From positions 1-64,000 of the forward strand of contig NZ_AUAC01000003.1 in NCBI RefSeq assembly GCF_000428525.1: DNA of 64,000 nt, in the 5' to 3' direction. Under the pieces are notes generated by a model. It was not told where the DNA came from. It was given only the letters and a program-made list of their open reading frames with translations, and searched no databases. This document shows, piece after piece, positions 4,611 to 26,356 of the stretch. Positions within the stretch are counted from its first letter, which is position 1. Every line of letters starts with the position of its first letter. This DNA is from Hellea balneolensis DSM 19091 (GTDB taxonomy: Bacteria; Pseudomonadota; Alphaproteobacteria; Caulobacterales; Maricaulaceae). A program made the position numbers and the translations under genes.

Positions 4611-6971
4611 TTAACCCGCATACATGACGCGTTGGAGGCCGACGAAAGCGGTTTTGATATTGGGGAGGTCGCCGAGTTGGGATTTGGCGTCTGACAAACT
4701 TCCATAGCGGATTTTGAGCAGATCACCGAGTTTGTCATAGCCCAGCTCTTCCACACCTTCGCGTTCATAGGCTTTAAGGACCGCTTCGAGGAAATCCCGC
4801 ATCGATGTTTCATAGCCGCTCAAGCCGAATTGACGGGCGTCTTCGGCGCGTTCAACACGGGTGCGCGGATCAAGCTTGAAACGGATATTGGCGAGCACAT
4901 CGAAAATATCGCTATCGGGCGCATCGATCAGGCGCGCCATATCATCTAGTCGTTCTTGGTCAAAGCCGCGTTCCTGTAACTGCCCCAGCAAAGCTTTGCG
5001 CAGATCAGGGTCGCTCCATTTCTCGCGCAGTTCTTCTTCGCCAGAGATCAGGTTTTGTAAATCACCAAACAAACGCTTTAGAAACTCTGAAGCCGAAACT
5101 TGCTGCCCGTCCAGCCAATAGGTCGTCACCGCCATATATTGGATTTGCCGCTTGGAGCCATCGGCCAATTTCACGACAACCTTCTCCGGCTTTTCTGCGT
5201 TTGGATCACCGGGGTCTACAAAATCATCCGGGTCTGGCTCTTTTACGCCTTCTGGGTCATTGGGTTTCTCTGGTGGAGGAACAGGCTCCAAAGGCTCCCC
5301 GTCCCATTCGGGGTCGTTGAAATGCTCATAGGCTTTGACGAAATCATAAATGGTGAAATGGTCCTTGCCGTCAAACATGCGCGTCCCGCGTCCGACAATC
5401 TGCTTAAACTCAATCATCGAGGTCACAGGTCGCATAAGAACAATATTGCGCACATTGCGCGCATCCACCCCGGTTGAGAGCTTTCGCGATGTAGTGAGGA
5501 TGGTCGGTATGGTTTTCTCATTATCCTGAAAGCGCCGCAAATCGGCTTCGCCCGCTTCGCCGTCATTGGCGGTCACGCGTACGCAATAACCCAGATCGGG
5601 TACGGGCTTATTCTCATTGATAAAGTCGCGCACCATAGCCGCGTGGTCTTGGGTGGCGCAAAAGACGAGCGTCTTTTGCATTGGGTTTATCTGCCCCATA
5701 AATTCTTTCACCCGGCTTTGCTCGCGCTCATCCATCACGATTTTGCGGTTAAAGTCGCTTTCGGTATAGGTTTTGTCTTGCTCGATAATGCCGCGCACCA
5801 CTTTATCACCGGGGCGGTAAACATATTCATCAATCGTACTGGCCATTTGCCGAACTTTAAATGGTGTGAGGAAGCCGTCTTCAATCCCTTCCTTGAGTGA
5901 ATAGGTATAAACAGGCTCCCCGAAATAGGCATAGCTATCGGCGTTGGTTTCGCGCTTGGGTGTGGCTGTCAGGCCGAGCTGCACGGCGGGCTCGAAATAT
6001 TCCAAAATTCGCCGCCAAGGCGTGGCGTCTCGAGCACCTGCGCGGTGGCATTCATCAATGATGATAAAATCAAAAAAGTCCGGCGGATATTCCATATAGT
6101 TTGGTTCGCCATTCTCATAGATTATGCCCTCTTCGTTCTCGCCAACTTCTTCCGACCCGCTGGTCATGAGTGTCTGAAAGATTGAGAAAAACACATTGGC
6201 ATTTTTGGGCATGCCCTTGCGGTTACGGATTTCCTTCGGGCTAATCCGCATACGCGCGTCTTCGGTAAAGCCAGAGAAACTCCCATAGGCCTGATCGGCG
6301 AGGATATTGCGATCCGCGAGGAAAAGGATACGCGGCTGCCGTTTTTTATCTCCCGGTAGGTTCCAACGTGTCTGGAACAGCTTCCACGCTATCTGATAGG
6401 CCACACCCGTCTTGCCAGTCCCTGTGGCGAGCGTCAGCAAGATGCGCTTATCCCCACGCGCTATGGCCTCTAAGACGGCAATGATGGAATTATGCTGATA
6501 GTAGCGCGGCTCCCATTTGCCGCCATCTGTGGCAAAGGGCACAGCGCCAAATAATGTGCGCCAGTCGCTTTCTTGCGGGAAGATACGTGCCCAAAGCTCA
6601 TCTGGCGATGGGAAGGGCGGCTGAAACTCGCGTTCTTTGCCCGTTTTCATATCAATCTCGCGCCATTTAAGACCGTTTGAGCAATAGGCAAAGCGCGCTT
6701 TGAGGCGGCGGGCATAATCTATGGCTTGGCGATGACCTTCGCGGTGGGACATAGAGGCCTTTTTGGCTTCCAGCGCAGCGAGCTTTTGTCCACGATATTC
6801 AAAGACATAATCGGCATGGACAGGATTAACGCGGTGCCCGCCCGACATAATTCGCCCCGGACAAATCAGCTCTTCACGCAACCGTGTACCAGACACCTTC
6901 CCCCAACCTGCCGCTTGCAGGGCAGGTAGGATGCGGTTAGTCCGTGTCTCGGCTTCGGTTTCGTCGTTCAT
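4611..6971 (-). CDS. hsdR: Type I restriction enzyme R subunit
   Basis: The 786-residue protein has the layout of EcoEI-like HsdR. An N-terminal PD-(D/E)xK nuclease shows D54 and E68-A-K70. Two helicase lobes follow, with Walker A TGTGKT at about residues 184-189 and the DECH box at 306-309; the GRGTRM phrase of motif VI and an EcoEI-type C-terminal region come after. In type I systems this subunit translocates DNA and cuts far from the target, but only in complex with M2S. The start overlaps the stop of the upstream 185-residue gene by 4 nt, the third such junction in this operon. No defect is visible here, but restriction depends on HsdM, which is interrupted. Confidence 0.95.
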   Translation of the reverse strand: MNDETEAETRTNRILPALQAAGWGKVSGTRLREELICPGRIMSGGHRVNPVHADYVFEYRGQKLAALEAKKASMSHREGHRQAIDYARRLKARFAYCSNGLKWREIDMKTGKEREFQPPFPSPDELWARIFPQESDWRTLFGAVPFATDGGKWEPRYYQHNSIIAVLEAIARGDKRILLTLATGTGKTGVAYQIAWKLFQTRWNLPGDKKRQPRILFLADRNILADQAYGSFSGFTEDARMRISPKEIRNRKGMPKNANVFFSIFQTLMTSGSEEVGENEEGIIYENGEPNYMEYPPDFFDFIIIDECHRAGARDATPWRRILEYFEPAVQLGLTATPKRETNADSYAYFGEPVYTYSLKEGIEDGFLTPFKVRQMASTIDEYVYRPGDKVVRGIIEQDKTYTESDFNRKIVMDEREQSRVKEFMGQINPMQKTLVFCATQDHAAMVRDFINENKPVPDLGYCVRVTANDGEAGEADLRRFQDNEKTIPTILTTSRKLSTGVDARNVRNIVLMRPVTSMIEFKQIVGRGTRMFDGKDHFTIYDFVKAYEHFNDPEWDGEPLEPVPPPEKPNDPEGVKEPDPDDFVDPGDPNAEKPEKVVVKLADGSKRQIQYMAVTTYWLDGQQVSASEFLKRLFGDLQNLISGEEELREKWSDPDLRKALLGQLQERGFDQERLDDMARLIDAPDSDIFDVLANIRFKLDPRTRVERAEDARQFGLSGYETSMRDFLEAVLKAYEREGVEELGYDKLGDLLKIRYGSLSDAKSQLGDLPNIKTAFVGLQRVMYAG

Positions 6972-7525
6972 TCTGGGAATTCCTCCAGAATATTGCCTTG
7001 GGCAGCTATTCGCAATTTATCCAAACGCTCTAAGTGATCCGAGATTGTCCCCAACTCTAATTCCAGCCGCTCTCCGATTTGCGAGATATTGGCGTCAGGT
7101 AATTTTTCATCGATTTCTTTAATACAGGCAAGAAAGTTTTGTACTGCGACAACCTCATTACGGTTTAAAAATTTTGCGCGTGATCGAAATTGGTTTTCAA
7201 ACCAGTCTCGCTCTTTGTAATAAAGCCATAGATGCTTTTTAACTCTGAAATCCTCGAGATCCATGAGGCTACGTTGTAAAACCCGCATGCTTCTGGCAAT
7301 GCCAATCCGGGCCTCATTGCGACTTTGGTAGGATTGAAAAATATAATCGATGATACGAATGGAAATATAAATGCCTATGAACTCCGGCGTCATACTTTCC
7401 AGAAAATTTACCCAGGCATTATCGATACCTTTTATCTCAAAAAATTCATTGGCGAATAATATGCCAGATGTGAGACCAGCCACACCAAATAGATCAAGGA
7501 AGAAATGATATCTTGAATATCTCAC
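6968..7525 (-). CDS. Uncharacterised protein encoded between hsdS and hsdR, probable membrane anchor
   Basis: This 185-residue protein is not one I recognise. The N-terminal 60 residues contain two hydrophobic stretches (about 9-25 and 47-66) that could cross or contact the membrane. The rest is charged and mostly helical, rich in Arg, Glu and Leu. Four-base overlaps with hsdS upstream and hsdR downstream show that it is translated as part of the restriction operon. Accessory genes inside type I operons are known and may modulate restriction, but no role can be assigned from the residues seen. Existence as a gene is well supported; function is unknown. Confidence 0.75.
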   Translation of the reverse strand: MRYSRYHFFLDLFGVAGLTSGILFANEFFEIKGIDNAWVNFLESMTPEFIGIYISIRIIDYIFQSYQSRNEARIGIARSMRVLQRSLMDLEDFRVKKHLWLYYKERDWFENQFRSRAKFLNRNEVVAVQNFLACIKEIDEKLPDANISQIGERLELELGTISDHLERLDKLRIAAQGNILEEFPE

Positions 7526-8781
7526 GTCAACTCTCCCGCAAAGGCTTTGGCGAGGAGGGATCGGCGGAGATCATTGCAATCATTTTGTTGCGATGCATTT
7601 GAGGTGTTTAGTGTCTTAAACTTCTTCGTGTAGAATTCAATTGTTGCAACAATTGTTTCTTGCTCCGGTTTCGGTGGTACGGGAATAGGAAATTGTCTAA
7701 TATCGCCAATGTTAAGATGGGGCGAAGCGGCACCACCCGTGAAATGACGAACCTCACCTAAAATTAGAGCCGAATTTAAAACAGAACAAAAATATTCCGG
7801 TAGGATATACTCATTCCGCAATCTAAACTGCATCATCCTTTGTCCAAGACAAGCCTTTAAGTCGGGCGGGTGCATGCAAGCTATGCCAAGAATTCCACCT
7901 TCTCTGCTATACAAGACATCTCCGGGCTTGGGCTCTAATCTTGATATTCTAGTTTGATAGGTTTCTGAAGATACATATCTAACCTTAGTGAGGTTTAGTT
8001 CACCAGGGCGAAAATTGGTCGTTCTTAAACATATTTCACCTTCATGGGTCCACTTGGGGGTTGTGTGTAGGCAATCAACTATATGGGTACAAAGTTGCTC
8101 CGTAGAAGCCCAGGTCCAATGAGCCGGAATTACGTCCTTATCATTTATCGTCACAAAGCGAGGCTTCCGAAATTTCTTCTCACCTTCTCGATTTTTTTGT
8201 TCTCGTGTAAGTTCCCTTATTGATTCAGTGACCGTCTTATGCGTAGATTCAGTTGAATTACCTAAGACCGCTTCATTTAGAACGACTTCAAACAACTCCT
8301 TAGCACTTTCCAAATTTGTCTCCGTATTGGCGCGGGCGCGATCTAGGCCTTCAAAGGCCTGATCGAGGGTCGCCACAATCCGTCTCTGCTCCTCTAAAGG
8401 CGGGAGAGTAATAGATAAATCGTAAACTTCGTTGCGATTAATTCCGGGTTTTACCCCTTTCGCCATTTTTGGAAGTTCTAAACTAAATAGAAGATACTCC
8501 AAAAAATCAAAATCAATTCGATCTTCGTCATGCGTCGTGAAGTAGGTAACATCTAAAGGCCAAAAAGGGGTTTCCACGCGATTGATTTCCCCCGCAGATC
8601 CTTTCCGCCCTACTATCAAAGACGGTGTTTCATAATAAAACTTCTCCGAATATGACTTTATACCATTAGCCCCTAAAACCGGATAAGAACCATCTGGATT
8701 TCTTTCATCTCTTGGCAGGGGTTTCCCATAATTTAGAGTGAGAACGTCGCCGAGGGGTATTTCCTCCCATCCCTCTTTCAC
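7522..8781 (-). CDS. hsdS: Type I restriction-modification specificity subunit
   Basis: The 419-residue protein has the usual two-half HsdS plan. Each half holds a target-recognition domain followed by a conserved helix: about residues 1-130 with the PPLEEQRRIV phrase near 128-137, then about 215-375 with PPKPEQETIVATIE. The two halves read the two parts of a bipartite DNA site and dock two HsdM copies. The first half starts with WEEIPLGDV, typical of the family. Both ends overlap neighbouring genes by 4 nt. The recognition sequence cannot be predicted by eye. Confidence 0.93.
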   Translation of the reverse strand: MKEGWEEIPLGDVLTLNYGKPLPRDERNPDGSYPVLGANGIKSYSEKFYYETPSLIVGRKGSAGEINRVETPFWPLDVTYFTTHDEDRIDFDFLEYLLFSLELPKMAKGVKPGINRNEVYDLSITLPPLEEQRRIVATLDQAFEGLDRARANTETNLESAKELFEVVLNEAVLGNSTESTHKTVTESIRELTREQKNREGEKKFRKPRFVTINDKDVIPAHWTWASTEQLCTHIVDCLHTTPKWTHEGEICLRTTNFRPGELNLTKVRYVSSETYQTRISRLEPKPGDVLYSREGGILGIACMHPPDLKACLGQRMMQFRLRNEYILPEYFCSVLNSALILGEVRHFTGGAASPHLNIGDIRQFPIPVPPKPEQETIVATIEFYTKKFKTLNTSNASQQNDCNDLRRSLLAKAFAGELT

Positions 8782-10235
8782 AACAATGTCCTTATATCTT
8801 CAAGGATTTTTGCCATTTCCTTATTCCGTGAGAGCATGTCGGCGATAATCTCTTCAGGATCGCGCAGTGGTTCTGCTTCTGGCTCATTGGGGTTCTTGAC
8901 AGAGAGATCAAGAGTCTCAAGGTCGACATCATCAACACTTTGAGTCCAGCTTTTCTCGCTTTCGGCCCGGATCTTTTGCAAGCTTACAAACTCTGCCAAA
9001 TCCTTATCATTAAGCGGATTGGTTTTGCCGAGGTTACGCCCCGGATCGAGGGCGTAATACCAGATGTCGCGCGTGGCTTTGCCTTTTTCAAAAAACAGAA
9101 CCACCGTTTTTACCCCCGCGCCTTGGAAGGTGCCGCCGGGGCAATCGAGGATAGTGTGGAGGTTACAATTGTCCAAAAGCTCCTGCCGTAGGGCAATAGA
9201 GGCGTTATCCGTATTCGATAGAAATGTGTTTTTAATCACAATTGCGGCGCGCCCGCCCGCGCGAAGTTTGCGAATGAAATGTTGTAAGAACAGATAGGCA
9301 GTTTCCGAGGATTTAATCGTGAAATTATGCTGCACCTCGCCGCGCTCTCCGCCGCCAAATGGGGGATTAGCGAGGATAACGTCATGGCGGTCTTTTTCCT
9401 GTAAATCCATGATATTTACATTCAGCGTATTGGTGTGAATGATATTGGGCGTTTCAATGCCGTGCAGCACCATATTCATAATGCCGATAATATAGGCCAG
9501 GGACTTTTTCTCTTGGCCGTAAAAGGTTCGCTCTTGCAGCGTTTCATAATCAGACGCGGATAGGTCCCCTGTTTTCATATAGTCATAGGCTTCGCAGAGG
9601 AACCCCGCCGAGCCGCAGGCCCCGTCATAGACCGTCTCGCCTATTTCCGGATCGAGTACTTTGATCATGGCGCGGATGAGCGGGCGCGGCGTGTAATATT
9701 CTCCGCCATTGCGCCCTGCATTGCCCATACGTTTTATGCGGCTTTCATAGAGGTCAGAGAGCTCATGTTTTTGGACTTGTGAGTTGAATTGCAAACTATC
9801 GACCTGATCAATCACATCGCGCAAAGTATAGCCGGAGCGAAAGCGATTAATAATTTCGGAAAATATCTCCCCGATTTTATACTCAATCTTGTCCGACGAT
9901 TTTGCGCTGGTCCGAAATGCCGCCAGATAGGGAAAGAGATCATCATTGACGAACTTAATAAAGTCATCGCCCGTCTTGGCGGTAATATGGTCCAGCTCGC
10001 CATTGGCATCTTTGGGCGCCGCCCAGCTTTTCTAGCGATAGGCGGTGTCCAGGATAGGGGCATAGTCCTTGCCCTCCAACAGCGCAGTATCCTCGCGCTC
10101 ACTCTCCCGGTCATCCAGATATTTGAGGAACAATATCCAGCTGGTTTGCTCGGCATAGTCCAGCTCAGACGCACATCCCGCTTCATTTCGTAGTGCGCGG
10201 TCGATATTGTTAAAGGCCGTTTCGAAGTTGCTCAT
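8778..10235 (-). pseudogene. hsdM: Type I DNA methyltransferase subunit interrupted by an in-frame amber codon
   Basis: The frame encodes 485 residues of an N6-adenine methyltransferase but is broken by TAG at 10032-10034, after residue 67. On both sides the frame is the same, so this is a nonsense change and not a frameshift. Upstream the residues match the HsdM N-terminal helical domain (FETAFNNIDRALRNEAG); downstream the text resumes as KSWAAPKDANGELDH. In HsdM proteins a Trp normally follows the YR pair here, so TGG to TAG is the simplest origin. The catalytic part has GEYYTP, the DGACGSAGF SAM motif and NPPFGG. Reinitiation at the ATG at 9824, suppression or sequencing error are alternatives. 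Without M, neither methylation nor restriction is expected. Confidence 0.9.
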
Positions 10236-10361
10236 TATAGTCCTGTTGCGGTCATGACAGTTTGGTTATTCTGATCCCCGGTTCTTGCTACTCAAGGGTG
10301 AGCACCGCGTAAAGCGCTATTAGTCGTCCGCAACCCTCTAAATACTCTCTAGGCTAGATTA

Positions 10362-11444
10362 TCATTTATTTGGGGGTGACCCAGGTTCCGGTACATCAGT
10401 TTCCGACTCAGTAGGCTCGCTAGCTTTTAGTATAGTGAGCTCTTTGCTTTCTAAAACTTTCACTCGATCTTTCAATTTACCATTTTCTGCGATAACTTTT
10501 TCTAATCGAGGTCTAAGTTGCTTATGCTGTGTGTGCATTTCTATATAGAATGTAGCCCAGAGTGCTAGGACAGCCAAAAATATACCCAAGCCAGCGATGA
10601 GGCCAATATTCTTAGCCTTCTCTGCTGCTCCCTTAGCAGTATCGGCTGCTGATTGAGCTTCGGTGGCTTTAGTCCTCGCTATAGTCGCTTGTTGGGTCGC
10701 TTTCACAGTCGCTTCGGGGATTGAACTGCGAATTGCTACTCTGGGGTTGTTAGGGTTAAACTGGCTAGCGGCTTTACTGATAAATTTTTCGATTTCCCAA
10801 AACTCAGTATTTGAAGGAGGTCTGCCAGCTTTTGGCATGCCAGTCATTTTGGTGAACTCCACCCAAATGAGTCCTTCAGTTAAAGGAATAGTGTAAGGTT
10901 CGTTCGTCAGGTTATGTAATGGAATGCATAATTTCCCCCAGAAACACGGATCAACTAGTGGACCTGTTCCTAAAAGAAGACCTCGATGGACATGATTAAT
11001 TTGTAGATTAAACCTTACGGCAATGAAAGGAGGAAGGCGAAATTCCAAATCACACTCTACAAACACAATTGAATTTGCGGGTATAGTCAGGTTGTCATCG
11101 TCAGGACTTAAAATGGATTCTAACTTGTATTCATTACTATTGAACACAAAGGCGTTTTCGCCAATTCGACCTTCATAGGATGCGGCCTTAAGTCTAGGTT
11201 TTTCATCTTCTTGCTTTGCAGAAAACGGAAAAACCATCCCTGTTTTACGGACATATTCAATAATATCGTCCGCAGAAAGTAACGATGCGTCGATTTTGGG
11301 CCAGGGATCTTTATAATCCACTTTCCCAGACTTGAACTTAAACGGTGTAGCTAATGTTTCGGCTTGCTTAACATCTTCTAGTTCGAAGGTCTGCAGTTTG
11401 GCTGCAGATAGTCGCCGGTTCGGTTTTGCAGGCTTTGCGCTCAT
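10362..11444 (-). CDS. Membrane-anchored protein with dCTP deaminase/dUTPase-like fold
   Basis: This 360-residue protein has a central domain (about 85-202) resembling the trimeric dCTP deaminase/dUTPase family. The clearest stretch is residues 159-197, with G-T-G-x-L-V-D-P-x-F-W-G-K-L and L-H-N-L-T-N. At the position of the catalytic Glu in dCTP deaminase (the E of an LEFxN-type phrase) I see Pro, so deamination is doubtful; an Asp suited to dUTPase-like chemistry is present (D165). An Ala/Thr/Lys-rich helical linker follows. A single membrane segment lies at about 289-313, and a short coiled coil at about 318-347. The start overlaps the stop of the PurZ-like gene by 4 nt, so the two are probably co-translated. 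Fold assignment is by eye and should be treated as moderate. Confidence 0.6.
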   Translation of the reverse strand: MSAKPAKPNRRLSAAKLQTFELEDVKQAETLATPFKFKSGKVDYKDPWPKIDASLLSADDIIEYVRKTGMVFPFSAKQEDEKPRLKAASYEGRIGENAFVFNSNEYKLESILSPDDDNLTIPANSIVFVECDLEFRLPPFIAVRFNLQINHVHRGLLLGTGPLVDPCFWGKLCIPLHNLTNEPYTIPLTEGLIWVEFTKMTGMPKAGRPPSNTEFWEIEKFISKAASQFNPNNPRVAIRSSIPEATVKATQQATIARTKATEAQSAADTAKGAAEKAKNIGLIAGLGIFLAVLALWATFYIEMHTQHKQLRPRLEKVIAENGKLKDRVKVLESKELTILKASEPTESETDVPEPGSPPNK

Positions 11445-12487
11445 ACGAATATTTTGTTCGCAGAAAAGATATCGAATGGTGAAAAACCAAAAAAGTTTAT
11501 ACTCTGGCCTAGCATGTCTTGAGTCTTCACTATGAACTTGGATAACTCGCTCTCAGTGTTATCTAAATCATGGCTTTTGCCTATGTAATCCAAATGGTTC
11601 ATAACCAATATATTTGGCTTGTTGACATCTAGCGCATGTTTGACTTGTTTTACATCAAATACGCCGACCCGACGTAATTTTTTTGTTACAGTTGTATATT
11701 CTCTTAAATCTAGATCACTACCTTTTCTTCGAGCAATTTCTTCCCAAGTCGTTTCCCCGAATAATGGCCCAGATTCTCCAGCCACTCGAATTGGGTATGA
11801 GCGTAAAACCATGACTACTTCATCGACATCTAAAGGGCTTAATCCCGCTTCGCTTAATGCAGCTGCTGCAGTCGTACTCCGCGAGGTTGCCTTTGGCCAG
11901 TAACCGCCTTCCAAGAGTGAGAGGCCAAAACCCTGAGAGCCTTCGATTATTACTCTCGAGCCTTTTGACAGCCACTTTCTAAGTCTCTCGGATGTATCAC
12001 AAACAAATGCTGAGAGGGTCTCGCAATGTTGAGCATCAAGTGAGCTTAGGGGAAAGTTTTGTGCCCCGCGAGCTACGGATGCTAAAACAGCTGCGCCAAC
12101 GCCACTTCCTGTTGAGCCAATATCTCTTCCAAGCTTTGACCCTGCTTCCCATAACTTGTGTTCGTCAGAAATTATTCGAGCATAAGGGCTAATAAAAATA
12201 CGATCTTTCGGATATTGAAGGAGTTCGATTTCTTCGAGCAAAATATTTACGTCAATATATGAGCCCGCTGGGAAGACAACATCGACATTTCTGTCAATGC
12301 ACCCTGCCGGTAATTGCCTTAAGGCATATTTGCGCTTGTCCTTAGTATAACCTGTGTGACCTGAGTTGGATCCTCCAACGCGAACCACGATCACATGGCT
12401 TTCTTTGGATCGCCTTGCAAGTTCGAGCGCCACTTTCCCCTTACCCTCAGAACCAAATTGTCCGCCAACAACTACAGATACGGGCAT
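11441..12487 (-). CDS. PurZ-like adenylosuccinate synthetase homologue
   Basis: The 348-residue protein aligns with adenylosuccinate synthetase but is about 80 residues shorter than bacterial PurA. The P-loop reads GGQFGSEGKGK, where E. coli PurA has GTQWGDEGKGK: the catalytic Asp13 is Ser. The GGSNSGHT segment keeps the catalytic His. Other matches are IGSTGSGVG, EGSQG, RSTTAAAA and EYTTVTKKLRRVG. Short length and Asp-to-Ser replacement are features of the phage PurZ group, which joins Asp to dGMP on the way to 2-aminoadenine DNA. I infer a (d)GMP-type substrate, not IMP. The start codon shares one base with the upstream stop (TAATG), and the next gene overlaps by 4 nt. A diverged PurA with another substrate remains possible. 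Confidence 0.8.
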   Translation of the reverse strand: MPVSVVVGGQFGSEGKGKVALELARRSKESHVIVVRVGGSNSGHTGYTKDKRKYALRQLPAGCIDRNVDVVFPAGSYIDVNILLEEIELLQYPKDRIFISPYARIISDEHKLWEAGSKLGRDIGSTGSGVGAAVLASVARGAQNFPLSSLDAQHCETLSAFVCDTSERLRKWLSKGSRVIIEGSQGFGLSLLEGGYWPKATSRSTTAAAALSEAGLSPLDVDEVVMVLRSYPIRVAGESGPLFGETTWEEIARRKGSDLDLREYTTVTKKLRRVGVFDVKQVKHALDVNKPNILVMNHLDYIGKSHDLDNTESELSKFIVKTQDMLGQSINFFGFSPFDIFSANKIFV

Positions 12488-14424
12488 TACGTTTCCCCTT
12501 GAAACTTATTCATTATGGTTATTATGTCGCCTGCAATATCGTATTTGGGGACATTATTAAAGTAGTTTTCGTGTGCGAGTTTCTGCATTTTATCAACTTT
12601 AGCCTCAACTTCTGATGAAGACGCCCTCTCAAACTCAGCATTGGCAGATTGAGTCTTCAATTTTAATCGTTCTATATAACGTTTTTTTCGAGTCGATTTT
12701 TGAGCGTCGACAAAAATATGATGAAAATTAAATCCGAATTTTTCTACTAGAAACGCATGATCATCTGGGAACCGTAAACCATCTACTACAATTTTATTAA
12801 ATCCACTAACCCGGGCAATAGTACGCTCTGCCAGTTCGCGTTGGCGACCTGTTTCATTGATTTCAAGACCAATTTTTTGTCTGTTTTTGCGATCAGCCTT
12901 CAAATTTCTTTTCGATAAAATTTCGTCAATAATGATGCTGAATCTTGTGTAGGCATATCCCTCATCTTCTAAAACTTGAGCTATCGTGGTTTTACCAGCG
13001 GCTATTGGTCCACTTATGCCTATTACCGTTGGGCGTTTGCTGACTTTAAGGTCCGGTATTATTAACGGGGGCTCTTCTTGGGTTCCGAGTTCTTCAGATA
13101 GGCCCGCCAGATGGAACGTACCTACTAATGCGGATGTGATTGCGTCTAGCTCATCATGGGTTACCTTTTTTCTAAGAAAATCACCCTGTACGCCAAATTC
13201 ACCCAAGCCAAGCTTTAACCACTTTTCTCCAGCGCCTTTTCTTGGAATGCGCATTATGTCTTGTGCTGCTCCAGGATAACTTTCGATAACTGGTATACCC
13301 AATTCTCTAAAGCCTTTCGCTAGCCGAATGCCTCTTGCAGTAAGTTTTTGCATACTGGGCAACAAGCTAGGGTAAACGTTTATTCCCCGCCTTTTCAGCT
13401 CTCGCTCACATTGTCTCATGATCCCAAATTCGTCTCTTGTAGGATCGTCATCGAATACAGTTTGGCGGCCAGCGGGCAGACATAAGGGGGAATCAATAGA
13501 AATTACGTCTGGTTTCGCAGCAACAGTTTGAGCAATTATATCAGCATCTGTAGCAATCATTTTAGTTTCAACGTGTGAACCCTTTAAGGCACACCAACCT
13601 GTCGGACGCGTTTCCGAACCCGTTAAATCAATCCCAACTATTTTGGATTTGGCTGCAGGTAAACCATCGAATAATTCTCTAAAAGTTGGAGCTCTGGTTA
13701 GCTCATTAGAGGCTGACTTCAAGTTTGTGGGTAAGCTGTTCATATTCTTCGGAGCTGACCAATCTTGAAATTTTACTTTTTTTCCAAAAAGGTCGTGCAC
13801 AAACCCTAGTCTTTGCAGGGCAATATCAAAAATGCTGCCCATTGCTGCAATATCAGCTCGATTGTACTGAATGAGGCGATTTAATGAACTCATATTTCCT
13901 CGAAGGTACTCATGCCACAAGAGTACGGCTGCGAAGCCATCTACGTCACCAATCTCTTCCCGAAAATCAATGCCAAGTTCTATTTCAATTGCCTTTTGTC
14001 CGCCCGTTAAATTTACTCGTCTGCATAAATACATCAAATCTATGTGGACGTCTGGCAATTCAATGCTTGGATGTTCCTGCTTTAAAAAGCGTTGGTCAAA
14101 TCTAATCCCATTGTAGGTTACCATCGCGACCGAATGACGAGCAGCGTCCAGTAATTCAGTGACGTCGTCACCTTTTACGAATGTTTGTGATTTTCCACCA
14201 ATCGACCAACCTACAACAGTAATCTCGTCGTAAAAGTGACTCAGCCCTGTTGTTTCAATATCTAGAAAAAGAACTTTTTCTGGATATTCGCAACAAAGAG
14301 AAAGTTCGCCATACAACTTTTTGGGTATTGGCTTAATAGTTCTCGTAGGCTTAATCGGTTTTAATTTTGAACCCAAGTCTCTGTCCTTAGCAAGCGACGG
14401 TGTTAGAAAATTCTTATATTCCAC
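12487..14424 (-). CDS. Three-domain fusion: DEDD exonuclease-like, DUF429-like and P-loop nucleotide kinase-like
   Basis: The 645-residue protein appears to join three domains. Residues about 50-205 are an RNase H-like DEDD exonuclease of the YprB type, with LDIETTG (D55, E57), YNGIRFD (D110) and YNRADIAA (D191). Residues about 260-440 match DUF429, another RNase H-like fold, with GIDLTGS, SIDSPLCLP, ESYPGAAQDI and a late HDELDA. Residues about 465-640 are a P-loop kinase (GISGPIAAGKTT at 469-480; VDGLRFPDD near 547-555), recalling dephospho-CoA, adenylate or deoxynucleotide kinases. It is the first gene of the module and meets the PurZ-like gene in TAATG. I know of no named protein with this order. 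Substrates are unknown; a nuclease plus dNMP kinase role is inference. Confidence 0.7.
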   Translation of the reverse strand: MEYKNFLTPSLAKDRDLGSKLKPIKPTRTIKPIPKKLYGELSLCCEYPEKVLFLDIETTGLSHFYDEITVVGWSIGGKSQTFVKGDDVTELLDAARHSVAMVTYNGIRFDQRFLKQEHPSIELPDVHIDLMYLCRRVNLTGGQKAIEIELGIDFREEIGDVDGFAAVLLWHEYLRGNMSSLNRLIQYNRADIAAMGSIFDIALQRLGFVHDLFGKKVKFQDWSAPKNMNSLPTNLKSASNELTRAPTFRELFDGLPAAKSKIVGIDLTGSETRPTGWCALKGSHVETKMIATDADIIAQTVAAKPDVISIDSPLCLPAGRQTVFDDDPTRDEFGIMRQCERELKRRGINVYPSLLPSMQKLTARGIRLAKGFRELGIPVIESYPGAAQDIMRIPRKGAGEKWLKLGLGEFGVQGDFLRKKVTHDELDAITSALVGTFHLAGLSEELGTQEEPPLIIPDLKVSKRPTVIGISGPIAAGKTTIAQVLEDEGYAYTRFSIIIDEILSKRNLKADRKNRQKIGLEINETGRQRELAERTIARVSGFNKIVVDGLRFPDDHAFLVEKFGFNFHHIFVDAQKSTRKKRYIERLKLKTQSANAEFERASSSEVEAKVDKMQKLAHENYFNNVPKYDIAGDIITIMNKFQGET

Positions 14425-14503
14425 ACTAAAGGCGTTCTATCCCAAAAGGCAAACAGTACAAACTAAGACTTTGGAGAATACAACGAATGCTTAGACTCCT
14501 AGT

Positions 14504-15598
14504 CTATTGGATTCCACGAACAAGGGCTATTTCCGCGAGCAACGTTTTCATATCCCCTTTTGTCAAAGGCTGAGTATCCTCATATTCATCTGTATTTTTG
14601 TGCCTATCCACTAATCCTAACATTGTTTCGCGCTGAGCATTTGGGCTTAACTTCCCGTAGCTATTATAGGTGGTATCGAGGTGTTCATGGCCCATATTTT
14701 GACTCCAAGCCTTCATCGCCATCGGATCGAGCTTTAACTGATACGCCAATGCGGTGAGCGTGTTTCGAAAACTGTGAGGATTGTAATATTGCATTCCATT
14801 TGCTTTGAATGCCTCGCGAAATATTTTTCTCATCGGCTGGGCAGTGGTCCAATGACGCTTGGTTAGGCCAACAGGCGTATAGAGGTCATTCTCATCATGG
14901 CCATTTTGCGTCGCTGGAAAGAGCGGGTCACTATCGGAGAAGCCTAAGTCATCTTTCAAGAATATGATATATTCTGCGACCTGGGCCTCGATAAAGTCTC
15001 CCACGGGGTAAAACCATGTCAGGATATGTTTGCTGGCTTTGGTGTTGGTTGTATCGGGGTGCTGAATTACTTCGCGCTCAGCAAGCCTTACATGCCCCAC
15101 TGTCATTGATATGATTGATCCATCCCGTGCACCAGATAATAGCGTAAAGGCTAACAGGGCTCGATTACGTCGATCTATAACGCTGGATATAGGCATCGCG
15201 GCAATAGTTGATGTGATTTGCTCTATAGTTGCGAATTTGACCATCTTTTGCGCTCGTCCTGCCCGTTGTTCCTTATCAGTAAGGCGTAGAGCTAAAAGTG
15301 GTTTCCGAGCTTGTTTTGGCTTTAATTTCTCATCCATAACCATCCACTGAAAAAAGTCTTTCACATGGCGTACCTTTGCCGCCTTTGTTCGAGTAGTGAC
15401 GGATAAACGACGCAGTGCCTCCAAATATGATGTTACATGTTCACGGCTAAACTTTTCAAAGTCTACCCATCCTGTAGCGATCTCATACCCAGCCAGTGCC
15501 GCCAGTTTTTGATCGATTGTGCTTTCTGCTTTCTGGACTTCTAGTTCGTCTATCCATGCAAGCTTTAGCCGCTCATTCTTGGGATTCACTTCAGTCAT
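14504..15598 (-). CDS. Tyrosine recombinase (XerC/phage integrase type)
   Basis: The 364-residue protein has an N-terminal SAM-like DNA-binding region and a C-terminal catalytic domain with the expected set: R158 (LSGARDG), H275 and R278 (HSFRNT), H304 (NMGHEH) and nucleophile Y311. AGGATAG lies just upstream of the ATG, which supports the start. It lies between the nucleotide-metabolism module and an AlpA-like gene and is transcribed with them. It differs from the two DUF4102-type integrases nearby. It could be the recombinase of a smaller element nested in the island; its target site is not recognised. Confidence 0.9.
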   Translation of the reverse strand: MTEVNPKNERLKLAWIDELEVQKAESTIDQKLAALAGYEIATGWVDFEKFSREHVTSYLEALRRLSVTTRTKAAKVRHVKDFFQWMVMDEKLKPKQARKPLLALRLTDKEQRAGRAQKMVKFATIEQITSTIAAMPISSVIDRRNRALLAFTLLSGARDGSIISMTVGHVRLAEREVIQHPDTTNTKASKHILTWFYPVGDFIEAQVAEYIIFLKDDLGFSDSDPLFPATQNGHDENDLYTPVGLTKRHWTTAQPMRKIFREAFKANGMQYYNPHSFRNTLTALAYQLKLDPMAMKAWSQNMGHEHLDTTYNSYGKLSPNAQRETMLGLVDRHKNTDEYEDTQPLTKGDMKTLLAEIALVRGIQ

Positions 15599-15668
15599 AT
15601 TTCTATCCTTTCAAAAGTGAGTGATTAAGGGGGGCATAGGAATTGCTAATATATGCGTATCCAGCTGC

Positions 15669-16094
15669 TCAATCATTCGAAGCTTTTGAAGCGTATTGGG
15701 CTTTCAAATTGGCTAGATTGGAACGAGTATTGAAGTTGCGTAGGGTCAATCCACAAATCACACACTCACCTAGTGCGATTACCTTCCGGGAGTTGCTAGG
15801 TTTAATCCGAAAACTACCTTTAGCGATTTGACGTGGTTCTTTGCATTTCACGCAATACATCTCATCCGGTGCGCAAGGGCGCTTCTTTGCCTCTTGTCGC
15901 GCTTTCATCCATGTTTTGGCTTTGGCGCCGTTTAGGATGATAGGTCGCGAGTCAGATACCATCGCACAGGATAAACCAGCTTTTTTAATCCATGCGCGTA
16001 TGGTAGCCGGATGTACATCCAATAGCTTACCAAGGCTTTCTACCGTATAAGGGCGATGGGACTTTATCAGTCGGTAATCATGTTTGCGCTGCAT
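15669..16094 (-). CDS. Helix-turn-helix protein with C-terminal zinc-ribbon-like cysteines
   Basis: The 141-residue protein begins with a helix-turn-helix (about 16-40: YTVESLGKLLDVHPATIRAW), similar to MerR/excisionase folds. The C-terminal half has Cys pairs at CVKC (near 81-84) and CVIC (near 111-114), as in a small zinc ribbon. It lies between the tyrosine recombinase and the AlpA-like gene on the same strand, so a role in excision control or regulation is plausible. I do not recognise a named family. Confidence 0.7.
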   Translation of the reverse strand: MQRKHDYRLIKSHRPYTVESLGKLLDVHPATIRAWIKKAGLSCAMVSDSRPIILNGAKAKTWMKARQEAKKRPCAPDEMYCVKCKEPRQIAKGSFRIKPSNSRKVIALGECVICGLTLRNFNTRSNLANLKAQYASKASND

Positions 16095-16421: not shown

Positions 16422-17483
16422 TTACTTTTCAGATTTCTTAAAAGCTGGATCATTATAATATCCAGATAATTTCGCCTTTACGGTGGAAACTCCAATATTT
16501 TCAACAAATTCAGCCTCATACCATTGGATTATTGTATGTGCAAACGCGTCCTGTTTCATAATTAACCCGCCTTCATTTGCAATGACTGAAGCAATTTTTC
16601 TATGGATGGCTTCGGAGTTTTTCGATGGACGGCCAATCTTTTTTGCTTTTCTAATCGGGTTAGAATTTCCCCCATATCCAAACAAGTACTCGCCACTTCG
16701 CTCCAATTGAATGGGTTTGCTTTTGATTGGTGGAAAAAGGTTAATTACATCATCAGAGTCATATCGAATTGCTAAATATGCTTTTTTACCATTACGAATA
16801 TAGGATCCTTCCCAATCAACATGGCGACTAATCCATACACTTTTAGGAATAGGTTTATGAGCATAATAGAATTTATCAGTATCCCAATTTCTATTATCAA
16901 ACCATTTTTCAATTTCATGATCAAAATCAGCCTCTGAATTTATGTCAACTTCTATGCCTGTGGCACTGATTTTACCTCCTCTAAGTTTAACAATAAGTGA
17001 GCATATTGTTTCATCTAAAGCGTCTTCCAAATCCAGATGCCATTGATCTGAATACTCAGCAATTTCGAGGGCTTTTTCGTATAATTTAAGTTCTTTATTA
17101 TGGTGTTGGATGCGCTCTGATTTCTCTTCTTCAGTGCAGTCATCTTTCATATATAATTCTGCCATCATTTTGTGATGTTCTGGCGATGAAACATACTCTT
17201 CGTCGTTCATAAGTCTTTCATAGTAATTCCATCTAGGGTCATTTCCAATGACGAGGCGACTTGTTTCACTTGGGTTGAGGTACTCAGGTCCTAATTCTGA
17301 CCCTAAAGATAGCGGGTATTGCTGGAATGCTTCGAGTGAGTCACGACCTTCATCTTCGTCAAAATACATGGGCGTTGGTAGTACTCGGGCAGATGCCCAG
17401 TAAAGCAAGTCAGTAAGAGTCCAGTATTCGGGCACTTCAACTTCTTTATAAAATTTGGGAAGGTTAGGTTTTTCAGTCATCAT
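16422..17483 (-). CDS. Uncharacterised acidic protein with C-terminal DNA-binding-like segment
   Basis: The 353-residue protein is not recognised. Its first 230 residues are acidic and rich in Tyr and Trp. Near residue 282 a basic KKIGRPSKNSEAIHRKI segment begins, followed by a helical region ending in STVKAKLSGYY, which resembles the small winged or HTH tails found in proteins near P4-type integrases. The start overlaps the end of the integrase gene by up to 11 nt (alternative ATG at 17480), so the two are probably one transcript. It is AT-richer than the restriction genes. Confidence 0.65.
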   Translation of the reverse strand: MMTEKPNLPKFYKEVEVPEYWTLTDLLYWASARVLPTPMYFDEDEGRDSLEAFQQYPLSLGSELGPEYLNPSETSRLVIGNDPRWNYYERLMNDEEYVSSPEHHKMMAELYMKDDCTEEEKSERIQHHNKELKLYEKALEIAEYSDQWHLDLEDALDETICSLIVKLRGGKISATGIEVDINSEADFDHEIEKWFDNRNWDTDKFYYAHKPIPKSVWISRHVDWEGSYIRNGKKAYLAIRYDSDDVINLFPPIKSKPIQLERSGEYLFGYGGNSNPIRKAKKIGRPSKNSEAIHRKIASVIANEGGLIMKQDAFAHTIIQWYEAEFVENIGVSTVKAKLSGYYNDPAFKKSEK

Positions 17484-18669: not shown

Positions 18670-18716
18670 TCTGTTTTCCTGCCAAAATGGGGGTATTTGA
18701 CTGAGCGTCAAATAAA

Positions 18717-18758
18717 TGCCCCCAATAGTGCCCCCAAATATGCAGGATGTACCCCCAC
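18717..18758 (+). repeat. Cluster of GT(G/A)CCCCCA repeats upstream of the P4-type integrase
   Basis: Three close copies of TGCCCCCA or TACCCCCA lie at about 18717, 18729 and 18749, all in one orientation. Two similar copies sit at 4583 and 4595, at the far end of the island. The tRNA-Thr fragment at 18849 also contains GTGCCCCCA, from its acceptor stem. These are candidate arm-type or core sites of the integrase. Confidence 0.5.
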
Positions 18759-18848
18759 GACGTTGGATGCTGTTGGACAACGTATGTAGTAAAAAGCCAA
18801 TAAAATCAAGGATTATTGGACTATTTCGGCTTTTAATGGATAGTTAAA

Positions 18849-22846: not shown

Positions 22847-25800
22847 ATGACAGAGGCTGGCGGCCCCACGACCCATGCGGGGATCACATATCAGAACTCT
22901 ATAGCTGCACTTTATTTGGGTCGAATGCTCGATACTGCTTTGCGGCCAATTCGTGACAGGGTGATAAAGGTTAGAACAGAGGTGCCTGCCGACGTTGACG
23001 ACATCCAAATTTGGATGGCCGATGGTTCTATCAAGATGATTCAAGCAAAAACTAAACTGAAGTCATCAGGAACTGCTTGGCGTAAGATTTGGTTGGATTT
23101 CAAAAGGGCTTTAGATGCGAATAGCGCTAGCCAAACACTTATCCTTAGCTTAACTGTTGGCGAGAACACCAACCTATCTTCAAATTTACGAGAATGTACG
23201 GAAAGGGCAGAGAGCTCTGTTTCTTATGATGAATATAGCCGCAGGCTAACTAAACCTCAGATTAAACTCGTTGAAAATATCGCTAACGTGCTATCTGTAG
23301 ACCATAGCAGTGCGATGTCCTTACTTTCAAAAATAATGATAGAAATAATTCCGAAAGAGTTTATTGAGCGTGATTATGCACCTCAATGGATGCCGAGAAG
23401 TGCTCCTCTAAGTTTTTCAATTTTTCAACTACTTCGAGATCATTGCGCTTCACGCTCAGCCCAGCGGGCTCTTTTTTTACCAGAGCCTCTCAGAGAGTTT
23501 CTCAAGAACGAACACAACATCGACATTTTGTATCCTTTAGATTGGGGAGCAGATGCTTACCGATCTATTGTCGTCGAACAAGCTAGTGTTGTTATTCCGG
23601 GAACTAGCTTTTCGAAGAAGATCGATGATAGTTTTCCTTGGCCCATATGTTGTCCTTTTGATAATAATCGAGAGGCTGATTTCGACGACGAGGCTACTAG
23701 CTATTCAGAAGAAGTCTATATCAAGTCTGTGGATATGCGACGCTTCCCAAGCCGAAATTTTAATCGTGTCGTTTTAGTTGGAGGGGCTGGACTTGGTAAA
23801 TCTGTTGTTAGTAGTGCTATTGCAGGAAGACTCGCGAAAAATGGTAAGCTCCCTGTAACAATAAAAATTCCGACTTTTTGTAAAAATGACTACACCATAG
23901 ATGAGTTTCTGAGCAAAGTTATAAATCCAGAATTCAGCATCAATATCGATTGGCAGCACGCTGCGGAGAAGGGCCGTGTGGTTCTTATTCTGGATGGCCT
24001 TGATGAAGTAGCTCCAGCACATCGTCAGCTAGTTCTAGAGAGATTGAAGGTATACTCTGCACGGTATCCACTTGTCCCCTGGTTGCTGACTGTAAGAGAT
24101 GCTACGGCGATAAACATCGCGATCGCAGGCGAACTCATTGAGATCAAACCATTGGATAATATTGCTGTCCAAAAAATGATCGAGTTCTATAGATCTGAAG
24201 ACAAAAAAAATATAGTTGAGGCATTTTCGAGGCTACTGAGCAACCGGCCGGATTTGTCTAGACTTGTCCGAATACCTCTTTTTTTAGCTTTACTTTGTGT
24301 TACATCCAAAGACTTAAAAAGACCTCCATCTAATCGTTCTGAGTTATTGGAAGACTACCTTTCAATTTTGCTAAAACCCGAATTTCATAAACCGTCCGAT
24401 GTGAGAGGGTTAGATGCGATTGCAATCCGTAAAATTTCCGAGAAAGTCGCTTTTGATGCCCTTCTGAGAGAACAGATCGGTGTAGATGAAAAACTATTGT
24501 TGATGAGTATGGATGCGCTAGGTCTAGATAATAGCGTCGATGTTGTAGCAAATACACTTACTACATGTGGCATGTTAAAACGTTCAGGGCCTACTAAACT
24601 TTATTTTCCATTTCCGATCATCCAGGAGTATTTAGCAGGCTGTTACCTAGCTGAAGAAGCGGCTGAAAGCATACCGAACCGTTTGGGCGAAGTAATCAAA
24701 AAACCTTGGGCTCAGGCCATCCAATTCGCACTTGAAAAACATCCTGCACCCGAGAGCATATCGCGCGAAATATTAGATGGAGACGTTGATGCATTTTCAA
24801 CACATTTAAGACTGCTATCGCGATGTGTTGCCAATGGGATGCCTTGTACCCCTGAGATACGAACAGAAATAACAGATGGTCTTGTCGAGTTCTGGAGTAA
24901 AGCAGGTTGGGAACTCAAGGAACGTGTTGGTCAATTGCTGTCTGAAGCGTTTTATAACCCCCTCACGCCTCGTTTACGTGAGGCGCTCTTTGAGCGTCGT
25001 TTTTTACACTACGGCCTTGGTCAGATTGTAACGAATATTGACGATGAAAAGCTTACAATTGAGGTGTTGGGCGCCCTGCTGAATTCAGGAGAAAAACACC
25101 TTTATAATTTGGCTGAGTTACAAATAGCTGTCGATAAAGTGGCTGAACGCGCTTTTGACTTGTATATTAATCTGGCTCAAAACCCTGACGAGAGCGACCT
25201 GGAAAGCGATGAACTAGAAGACATGCTTTCGTGCCTTCTTTCACACTTGAACACCGATAATATATCGCAATGTAAAATAACTAACGTGGCGCAAAATGAA
25301 AACCTATTCCTTGGGTTAAGGCTGGTATGTTTCTTAAAAATTAAAAAGCCGATTGATGATGATTTAAAGTCATTGATCCGCATTGCACTGGCTAGAGATG
25401 GGTTTTATCCAAGGAATGCTGCTTTTGCGTTATTGGCAGAACATACTGCATTGTCCGAAATCGTATTGGAGTTCTTCTCCAAGCCAAAAACTATTGAAGA
25501 GGACTTATATAAATTTCTAGATGCCATTCCCAAACGAGACGGACCAGAGTTTCATTTGTCTCTTGCGAGCAATGCTAAGATCCCCGAAAATGTTAGACTT
25601 CGTTCACTGGTGTTTGCAGCGCGATACGGAAGTAGATCAGCGATGGAGGAGCTTCTCTCGAATATCGACATCAACCCCGCAGAAATCGTAACGGCAGCAT
25701 TGAGTCTTTTCGGGCATCACCAATCTTATGAGCTCGCTAAAATGGCTGCTGACGAACTGTCTAATCGAGAATGGAGTCGTGCAGATAAATTGTCTATTGC

Positions 25801-26356
25801 GAGTTCTTTGAGAACAGGAATGACAACTATTTTCGAGATGGATAGTTTTCAGGGTGGTCTTTTAGAATATAGCCCCCTCCATTTGGGAGCGCCACTATTC
25901 GAATCTCTTCTTGAAGAGTGGTCCGATTGTCCGGAGTTCAATACAAGAGATAAAACTTCCTACGACCTTTCGTTGGCACATATCGGATATGAAGCCGCTG
26001 CTTTAAGAATAAATGAGCGTTTGATTGCGTTGTTAAGTGCTAATGATGTGGATTTAAAAAATTGGGAAACTGCTCACCTAATTGGCTCAGCAGTCAGATT
26101 TCTACAGAGGTTTGGGCAATATCCAACGATCGAAACTATCGAGTCAATTATTCAAAAGAGTTCGCATAACGGAATTTTCCCATGCTTTGATTTATTGGCG
26201 GCAATCGGAACAAGAGAAGCATTAGATATACTGCTCTGGTCTTATAATGGGGGTACTGATGAAGCCCGTGGCGCGGCTTTCACTGCCATTGAAAAGCTAG
26301 CAGGCCGCATAGGTGTCCTAATTTTGGACTCGGACGGAAAACTTGGAATTAAGTAA
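22847..26356 (+). CDS. NACHT-domain NTPase with N-terminal PD-(D/E)xK-like nuclease (NLR-like defence protein)
   Basis: The 1169-residue protein has three parts. The N-terminus begins GGPTTHAGITYQNSIAA and has E45, D51/D52 and Q66-A-K68, the pattern of DUF4297/Cap4-like nucleases. A NACHT module follows, with Walker A GGAGLGKS at 312-319 and the D-G-L-D-E Walker B at 383-387. The C-terminal 600 residues are helical, HEAT-like sensor material. This layout matches bacterial NLR-like anti-phage proteins (bNACHT/Avs type), in which target sensing switches on the effector; here DNA cleavage is the likely effector. The target is unknown. It is single-gene sized but sits divergent to the DUF4238 gene. 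Confidence 0.85.
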   Translation: MTEAGGPTTHAGITYQNSIAALYLGRMLDTALRPIRDRVIKVRTEVPADVDDIQIWMADGSIKMIQAKTKLKSSGTAWRKIWLDFKRALDANSASQTLILSLTVGENTNLSSNLRECTERAESSVSYDEYSRRLTKPQIKLVENIANVLSVDHSSAMSLLSKIMIEIIPKEFIERDYAPQWMPRSAPLSFSIFQLLRDHCASRSAQRALFLPEPLREFLKNEHNIDILYPLDWGADAYRSIVVEQASVVIPGTSFSKKIDDSFPWPICCPFDNNREADFDDEATSYSEEVYIKSVDMRRFPSRNFNRVVLVGGAGLGKSVVSSAIAGRLAKNGKLPVTIKIPTFCKNDYTIDEFLSKVINPEFSINIDWQHAAEKGRVVLILDGLDEVAPAHRQLVLERLKVYSARYPLVPWLLTVRDATAINIAIAGELIEIKPLDNIAVQKMIEFYRSEDKKNIVEAFSRLLSNRPDLSRLVRIPLFLALLCVTSKDLKRPPSNRSELLEDYLSILLKPEFHKPSDVRGLDAIAIRKISEKVAFDALLREQIGVDEKLLLMSMDALGLDNSVDVVANTLTTCGMLKRSGPTKLYFPFPIIQEYLAGCYLAEEAAESIPNRLGEVIKKPWAQAIQFALEKHPAPESISREILDGDVDAFSTHLRLLSRCVANGMPCTPEIRTEITDGLVEFWSKAGWELKERVGQLLSEAFYNPLTPRLREALFERRFLHYGLGQIVTNIDDEKLTIEVLGALLNSGEKHLYNLAELQIAVDKVAERAFDLYINLAQNPDESDLESDELEDMLSCLLSHLNTDNISQCKITNVAQNENLFLGLRLVCFLKIKKPIDDDLKSLIRIALARDGFYPRNAAFALLAEHTALSEIVLEFFSKPKTIEEDLYKFLDAIPKRDGPEFHLSLASNAKIPENVRLRSLVFAARYGSRSAMEELLSNIDINPAEIVTAALSLFGHHQSYELAKMAADELSNREWSRADKLSIASSLRTGMTTIFEMDSFQGGLLEYSPLHLGAPLFESLLEEWSDCPEFNTRDKTSYDLSLAHIGYEAAALRINERLIALLSANDVDLKNWETAHLIGSAVRFLQRFGQYPTIETIESIIQKSSHNGIFPCFDLLAAIGTREALDILLWSYNGGTDEARGAAFTAIEKLAGRIGVLILDSDGKLGIK

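Follow-up and report, generated by a model that had tools for sequence, protein, structure and literature searches.

We analysed a 64,000-nucleotide stretch of Hellea balneolensis DSM 19091 (contig NZ_AUAC01000003.1, positions 1 to 64,000; hereafter the window), in which three open reading frames (ORFs) on the minus strand form an operon predicted to act on nucleotides. As read from the ORFs, these are, in the order of transcription, gene A (12487..14424, 645 amino acids (aa), GTG start), gene B (11441..12487, 348 aa) and gene C (10362..11444, 360 aa). The letters at the A/B and B/C junctions, CGTAATGCC and GTATGAGC, give TAATG and ATGA overlaps. Gene A appears to encode a fusion of an exonuclease, a DUF429 domain and a nucleoside monophosphate (NMP)-kinase-like domain, gene B a synthetase of the PurZ clade and gene C a membrane-anchored protein with the fold of dCTP deaminases and dUTPases.

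The best models of gene B are those of PurZ (NF038379, E 1.8e-72; phrog_1211, E 8.4e-75). The catalytic Asp of PurA is replaced by Ser in gene B (GQFGSEGKGK), and GSEGKGK is present in the window and in all six relatives of the same type (type I), the host's own PurA retaining GDEGKG. In the excerpt of a PurZ survey used here (PMC12884076), Ser occupies this position in 147 of 147 phage PurZ and Asp in 99% of the PurA group. When the base pocket of S-2L PurZ, as given in the available part of PMC8342488, was mapped by MAFFT, six of its seven residues were identical in gene B (G22, S23, N49, T132, Q190 and V241), the seventh, A50, being Ser. The donor-base residue Q308 of S-2L is Asp in gene B, as in PurA, and GTP may therefore be the donor.

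A PurZ/PurA tree of 67 rows was rooted at its midpoint, with 17 presumed near-duplicate or fragment loci and 12 repeat loci left out; the host PurA sits on a long branch and only two rows are of the Asp type. Gene B of the window falls within an all-Ser set, with the host PurA and L010, from an R. leguminosarum plasmid, outside it (99/99). It joins loci L004-L007 (100/100) and then a set of ten rows (100/99) that adds S. medicae L008, genome G029 (locus L089) and the viral contigs L011, L013 and L015, so that its nearest PurZ relatives include viral contigs. These had been fetched through the patterns QFGSEGK or MPVS[VI]VVG, and their Ser is thus partly a matter of selection. Six proteins in which a kinase is fused to PurZ form one clade (100/100), and S-2L and phiVC8 are placed elsewhere. 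On good grounds of homology we regard gene B as a PurZ-clade succino-aminodeoxyadenylate synthetase, whose product is likely a modified purine deoxynucleotide. On the R. leguminosarum plasmid, the Asp-keeping PurA-like enzyme lies in a cluster (7375-15721) with GTP cyclohydrolase, PurB, IMPDH, QueC, 6-carboxytetrahydropterin synthase, QueE and nitrile hydratase, which looks like a 7-deazapurine natural-product cluster.

A tblastn search with gene B gave matches in 212 phage records, and all of those listed (40 of 212) are annotated as PurA-like or as 2-aminooxy adenylosuccinate synthetase. A ligand of phage origin therefore probably exists in nature, and gene C or the kinase of gene A could serve to detect Z or S nucleotides made by phage PurZ, with gene B priming or calibrating the response. 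We consider such a sensor very improbable, as it does not explain why the host would retain an intact PurZ of its own in every copy.

The first domain of gene A (residues 52-200, 13825..14271) matches RNase_H_2 of Pfam over the cut-off (E 2.8e-28). Among six aligned homologues D55, E57, D110, Y187 and D191 are invariant, a pattern which we take to be that of the DEDD-type 3'-5' exonuclease motifs and which fits such an enzyme. The second domain (about residues 264-457, 13054..13635) matches DUF429 one bit below the Pfam cut-off (E 1.5e-4); it presumably adopts an RNase H-like fold, and D266, D311, D424 and D427 are invariant in the same alignment. Residues 263-457 share 54% identity with a stand-alone DUF429 protein on a Dyadobacter plasmid, where it is encoded after a diadenylate cyclase that carries DACNG/DACNH sensor domains (L093, 4432-6594). 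The third domain (about residues 466-625, 12550..13029) is P-loop NMP-kinase-like, with the motif GPIAAGKTT, an AAA_18 match just below the cut-off (E 1.5e-6) and G477, K478 and T479 invariant. Its best structure matches are the adenylate-kinase-related 3lw7 and 3h0k, and it shows homology to the kinase portion of a kinase-PurZ fusion protein (E 6e-14). The assignment of gene A as an exonuclease, DUF429 and NMP-kinase-like fusion thus has good backing from homology.

Residues about 50-203 of gene C (10836..11297) form a predicted nucleotide-binding-fold domain, with a TIGR02274 match at residues 56-203. Gene C alone matches dCTP deaminase at E 3.2e-5, and a family profile of seven rows matches an archaeal solved chain of the dCTP-deaminase/dUTPase superfamily at E 4e-13; the best fold matches of its structural model are dUTPases and dCTP deaminases. 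It shares with this superfamily the fold and a conserved DP core. The position of E. coli Glu138 is Pro in all seven type-I homologues, and the deaminase Glu is kept by none of 13 aligned relatives. A role as an active dCTP deaminase was rejected on these residues and is very unlikely. As to dUTPase, the catalytic Asp (D165) is invariant, but the Ser pair motif RSS of 9ln0, a related dUTPase that itself lacks the Glu, aligns to Q-I-N in the window. Gene C further adds a predicted membrane segment (residues 280-298, 10551..10607; hydropathy 2.31 over 19 residues against a line of 1.6) inside a long helical tail, which a low-confidence model draws as one helix at 244-339. A single segment over the line is found in five of seven homologues, and L006 has three. 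Gene C is thus probably an inactive, membrane-anchored protein of the dCTP-deaminase/dUTPase fold. With the deaminase Glu missing it looks like a reader of nucleotides, a role that we infer from the loss of catalytic residues in a fold that is retained.

These results agree in part with a preliminary description of the locus, made from its letters, which had proposed one overlapping operon of nucleotide-acting genes with an exonuclease/DUF429/kinase fusion, and whose PurZ-like synthetase can now be placed in the PurZ clade by the Asp-to-Ser exchange and the tree. Its view of gene C held for the fold and the membrane segment; a working deaminase did not survive. The structure prediction it had suggested gave fold searches in accordance with the sequence assignments and added little, the predicted local distance difference test (pLDDT) score being moderate (63) for the model of gene A and poor for that of gene C.

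The identities of the three genes bear on a further possibility, in which genes A and B use up dGMP, (d)GTP or (d)ATP upon infection, like the anti-phage dGTPases and dCTP deaminases, and gene C holds the complex in place or gates it. S-2L PurZ is able to act as a dATPase according to the portion of PMC8342488 consulted, and the P-loop kinase of gene A is similar to a portion of the dCTPase model of PADLOC (E 1.1e-9). However, gene C has the residues of an inactive deaminase, and depleting a pool through stoichiometric synthesis of N6-succino-2-amino-dAMP (dSMP) would be expensive; we hold this explanation to be decidedly unlikely. With the anti-phage dCTP deaminase (DCD/AvcD) and dGTPase systems the operon has the nucleotide theme and this kinase resemblance in common, but no cytidine-deaminase-type domain was found in it, gene C has another fold, and the anti-phage dCTP deaminase model NF041025 gives gene A 16 bits against a cut-off of 400 and leaves gene C unmatched.

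In locus L006 gene C has diverged (26% identity) and begins 384 bases after B. Relatives of this copy were examined in genome G102 and on plasmids (six of 11 gene C-like plasmid records: H110, H114, H118, H119, H120 and CP140912.1 (H1)). A conserved small protein accompanies them in five of six loci (L105, L106, L107, L109 and L112; not L108), and an HMUDK_hel protein, whose family takes its name from 5-hydroxymethyl-dU DNA kinases, comes next in three of the six (L105, L112 and, divided between two frames, L106). The small protein, the Glu-less dCTP-deaminase-fold protein and HMUDK_hel thus stand in a row at L105 3375-5856, L106 3317-5609 and L112 4270-6685. A hydrophobic segment over the line is present in five of the six relatives and missing in L105, and the window's gene C is 30% identical to the L112 protein over 137 residues (E 4e-8). 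This set is likely a sister system with thymine-type base chemistry, and the Glu-less fold beside HMUDK_hel is what chiefly leads us to regard gene C as a modified-nucleotide reader.

The loci compared were found by searches with gene B, and the counts of the A-B-C arrangement thus describe B loci. Among seven cellular loci with a type-I gene B (the S. medicae plasmids counted as one), C adjoins B in all and A precedes B in six. In two more S. medicae records, matches to B and to C lie next to each other. A genome scan gave 16 stretches that fit the gene B pattern, with four relatives confirmed, each with A-B-C; the arrangement is also present in G029, making six loci with the window. Gene B of the five further loci is 74, 64, 63, 70 and 46% identical to that of the window, and the repetition of the order in all five puts the arrangement beyond chance. 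In the G029 locus (L089) a deoxynucleoside kinase gene (10248-10853) overlaps the end of gene C by one base, which is seen in this locus only. An RlmJ-family gene, found by Pfam in L089 and by eye in a similar form in L005, was considered as a fourth component and dropped, since RlmJ genes are common on chromosomes.

Among 61 genomes (the window's own, nine of the genus, 27 of the family and 24 of the order) gene B is present in the window's own only, which indicates that the operon was most likely acquired horizontally. A strong gene B match occurs in five of 398 genomes of the phylum, namely the window, G029 and three kinase-PurZ fusions, and in G029 only among 78 genomes of its class. A full gene A was found in the window only among 337 genomes of the class, the exonuclease part occurring in one more, and gene C matches are limited to three of 299 genomes (window, G029 and G102).

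Altogether, we favour, at a probability of roughly 40%, the reading that the operon is a horizontally moving anti-phage (conflict) module that signals internally through a modified purine deoxynucleotide; its trigger, its effect and its anti-phage role we infer from context. In the mechanism we propose, the exonuclease half of gene A would release deoxynucleoside monophosphates (dNMPs), including dGMP, from DNA, or would sense DNA ends. Gene B would then couple aspartate to dGMP, giving dSMP, a step suggested by homology and the diagnostic Ser, and the host PurB may convert dSMP to dZMP. The kinase domain of gene A would phosphorylate the product, and gene C would bind this nucleotide through its inactive dUTPase/dCTP-deaminase-fold domain, then act at the inner membrane and halt growth or phage production. 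The domains that would perform these steps are identified from their sequences; for the sequence of events, as for the ligand, trigger and outcome, the scheme is our proposal.

This scheme is alike in principle to Kongming (KomABC), in which a base-altering enzyme acts on a dNMP, a kinase step follows and the reader, KomB, has a nucleotide-hydrolase-like fold. However, no shared gene was found, the Pfam matches of the three genes include no adenosine deaminase or SIR2 domain, the operon encodes its own kinase whereas that of Kongming comes from the phage, and its effector end is a membrane segment. In the excerpt of a review used here (PMC12948488), Kongming makes dITP, which is read by KomB. 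A proposed nucleotide maker with a nucleotide-reading membrane protein also recalls CBASS and other membrane-effector systems with nucleotide signals, but no CD-NTase domain was found in the operon and no cyclic nucleotide is proposed. Gene B has no counterpart among the models of PADLOC (2023), which genes A and C match at domain level only. None of the matches listed from the open-access literature describes the operon, as judged by title and abstract start; PMC12458937, in the part available, bears on YprA helicases.

With the Z cluster of the phages S-2L and phiVC8, the operon has in common the PurZ fold, the Asp-to-Ser exchange and six of the seven S-2L guanine-pocket residues of gene B. 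It differs in lying in a cellular mobile island and in its additional exonuclease, DUF429 and kinase domains and membrane partner. Another possible reading is that the operon makes dZTP, which would enter DNA and harm phage replication or shield the DNA of the element from nucleases, with gene C as a membrane-bound clean-up or tether. PurZ and a kinase are the natural route from dGMP to dSMP, dZMP and dZDP, a phage datZ-mazZ-purZ cluster placed Z in E. coli DNA (PMC8342488, in the part used), and an HD protein of the second PurZ system described below has a short, weak DatZ match (37 residues, E 2e-4). However, DatZ and MazZ, which the preliminary description had not seen either, were not found among the operon neighbours tested with Pfam and PHROGs, a genome-wide search not having been made. 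No frame of the genome exceeds the cut-off for the Z polymerase DpoZ, the only match being a frame of 943 aa at 182.6 bits against 500, and 10 of 14 control genomes likewise give a match below the cut-off. As the use of Z in DNA would also have no need for an inactive membrane-anchored partner of the dUTPase fold, we judge it unlikely.

The surroundings of the operon are those of a mobile island. The G+C content per kilobase is 0.42-0.47 across the operon, compared with 0.50-0.55 at 29-36 kb of the window. A tyrosine integrase (14504..15598, minus strand) lies directly upstream on the strand of the operon, and two further integrases follow (17473-18780, minus; 19049-20209, plus). Directly downstream, on the other flank, is a type I restriction system (4611..10235, minus) with hsdR (4611-6971), a small ORF (6968-7525), hsdS (7522-8781) and hsdM (about 8778-10235), the last broken by an in-frame stop near 10032-10034. 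Beyond the integrases a NACHT-domain protein is encoded (22847..26356, plus), whose N-terminus is weakly LmuA/HamA-like (E about 2e-6), and an 809-aa DUF4238 protein (20313-22742) separates the NACHT gene from an integrase. The adjoining restriction system and the island setting of the preliminary description were thus recovered, the latter as an integrase-flanked region with defence genes. Conserved co-occurrence extends beyond close relatives, to a gene B of 46% identity, and a prophage with structural genes, which that description had named as the contrary outcome, is not indicated, as eight window neighbours tested with PHROGs gave integrases and unknowns only.

Defence genes recur near the relatives, with SoFic at L004, RmrA at L005 and an RTasHel/GajB-like helicase at L008, and, at loci of kinase-PurZ fusions, GajB (L116), RdrB (L118) and an AbiJ-like PDC-S32 protein (L114); annotations near L009 include AbiE, SIR2 and SbcCD. 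Among ten hand-picked neighbours, a sample with no background rate, six match a defence model, one of them weakly.

Several observations weigh against the anti-phage module. The other four of the ten hand-picked neighbours match no defence model, the neighbours of L006 and L089 are by eye mostly of housekeeping type, and the LmuA/HamA-like match of the NACHT protein is weak; at L115 and L117, most named neighbour annotations are metabolic or transport genes. For gene B, the NF038379 score of 244 bits is below the curated cut-off of 300, and since most pocket residues are common to the host PurA, the pocket tells gene B from PurA by the Ser alone. The resemblance of the gene A kinase to the dCTPase model is likewise weak. 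The model of gene C has a pLDDT of 51, and gene C of L008 has no segment above the hydropathy line. Moreover, S. medicae plasmid L008 has B-C and no gene A match within 25 kb, and full-length gene A was found on no plasmid searched, which suggests that the exonuclease and the kinase are not always required. Finally, a 5.9-kb viral contig, L079, ends (5182-5856) in a gene A-like kinase tail (model positions 543-630, E 2e-20 in a small search) with the opening 45 residues of gene B next (71% identity), and the frames just before the tail look by eye like phage head genes; the contig may represent a phage-carried module, an insertion or an assembly join.

L079 also bears on the reading that the operon has no defence role and is instead left over from a phage cluster for base modification, a metabolic module that phages carry, or a salvage operon that simply sits on mobile DNA. 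The grouping of the window's PurZ with L011, L013 and L015, the adjoining integrases and the kinase-PurZ fusions on viral contigs L062 and L077 point the same way. However, there are six copies in one order with invariant active sites, a pattern scan of viral contigs for gene A confirmed none of 82 candidates as relatives, and neither phage structural genes among the eight neighbours nor a DpoZ over the cut-off accompany the operon. The relic that the preliminary description had offered as its alternative is thus disfavoured, its viral PurZ relatives and L079 being what remains of it, and we consider this reading without a defence role improbable.

A second, separate PurZ system was noted. Kinase-PurZ proteins of 520-562 aa match the kinase domain of gene A with their N-terminal half, and the kinase is thus tied to PurZ twice, by operon in the window and by fusion in this system. 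Eight of 11 kinase-PurZ loci examined (L009, L091, L092 and L114-L118) carry DUF7002, an HD (YfbR-like) protein and a protein of about 456 aa; the copy of this last protein in L092 gave no match in Pfam or NCBIfam. L062 combines DUF7002 with an M48-like protein, whereas L090 has the M48-like protein only and the phage-like contig L077 none of these. DUF7002 has, by eye, an ART-like fold; its relatives occur on ten plasmids, of which the eight best also match kinase-PurZ (six examined, H5 and H17 left out), and on the other two no PurZ annotation was found within 4 kb. An identity of the HD proteins with DatZ was rejected, as the S-2L DatZ match is short and weak (that of L008 has E 0.003), and loose HD kinship alone is claimed.

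Tentatively, and with more doubt than for the window itself, we suggest that enzymes of the PurZ type, known mainly from phages, make Z- or succino-purine deoxynucleotide messengers in a whole family of immune systems of bacteria. The messengers would be read by retired dUTPase/dCTP-deaminase folds at the membrane (type I, as in the window) or be coupled to DUF7002 (type II), and parallel systems would join the retired fold to enzymes of the thymine-hypermodification type. If so, bacteria would have adopted the base-modification chemistry of phages as an alarm code, and intact PurZ with kinases and inactive membrane nucleotide binders on bacterial mobile islands would point to immune messengers of a new chemical class. 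This reading would provide an exact, testable molecule and would join phage base modification and bacterial nucleotide signalling in one arms race. The PurZ survey, in its excerpted text (PMC12884076), covers phage PurZ and four archaeal sequences, with a cellular sample of at most two sequences per phylum. At L062 (4078-8863), an IrrE-like peptidase fused to a macro domain is encoded beside the kinase-PurZ, DUF7002 and M48-like proteins.

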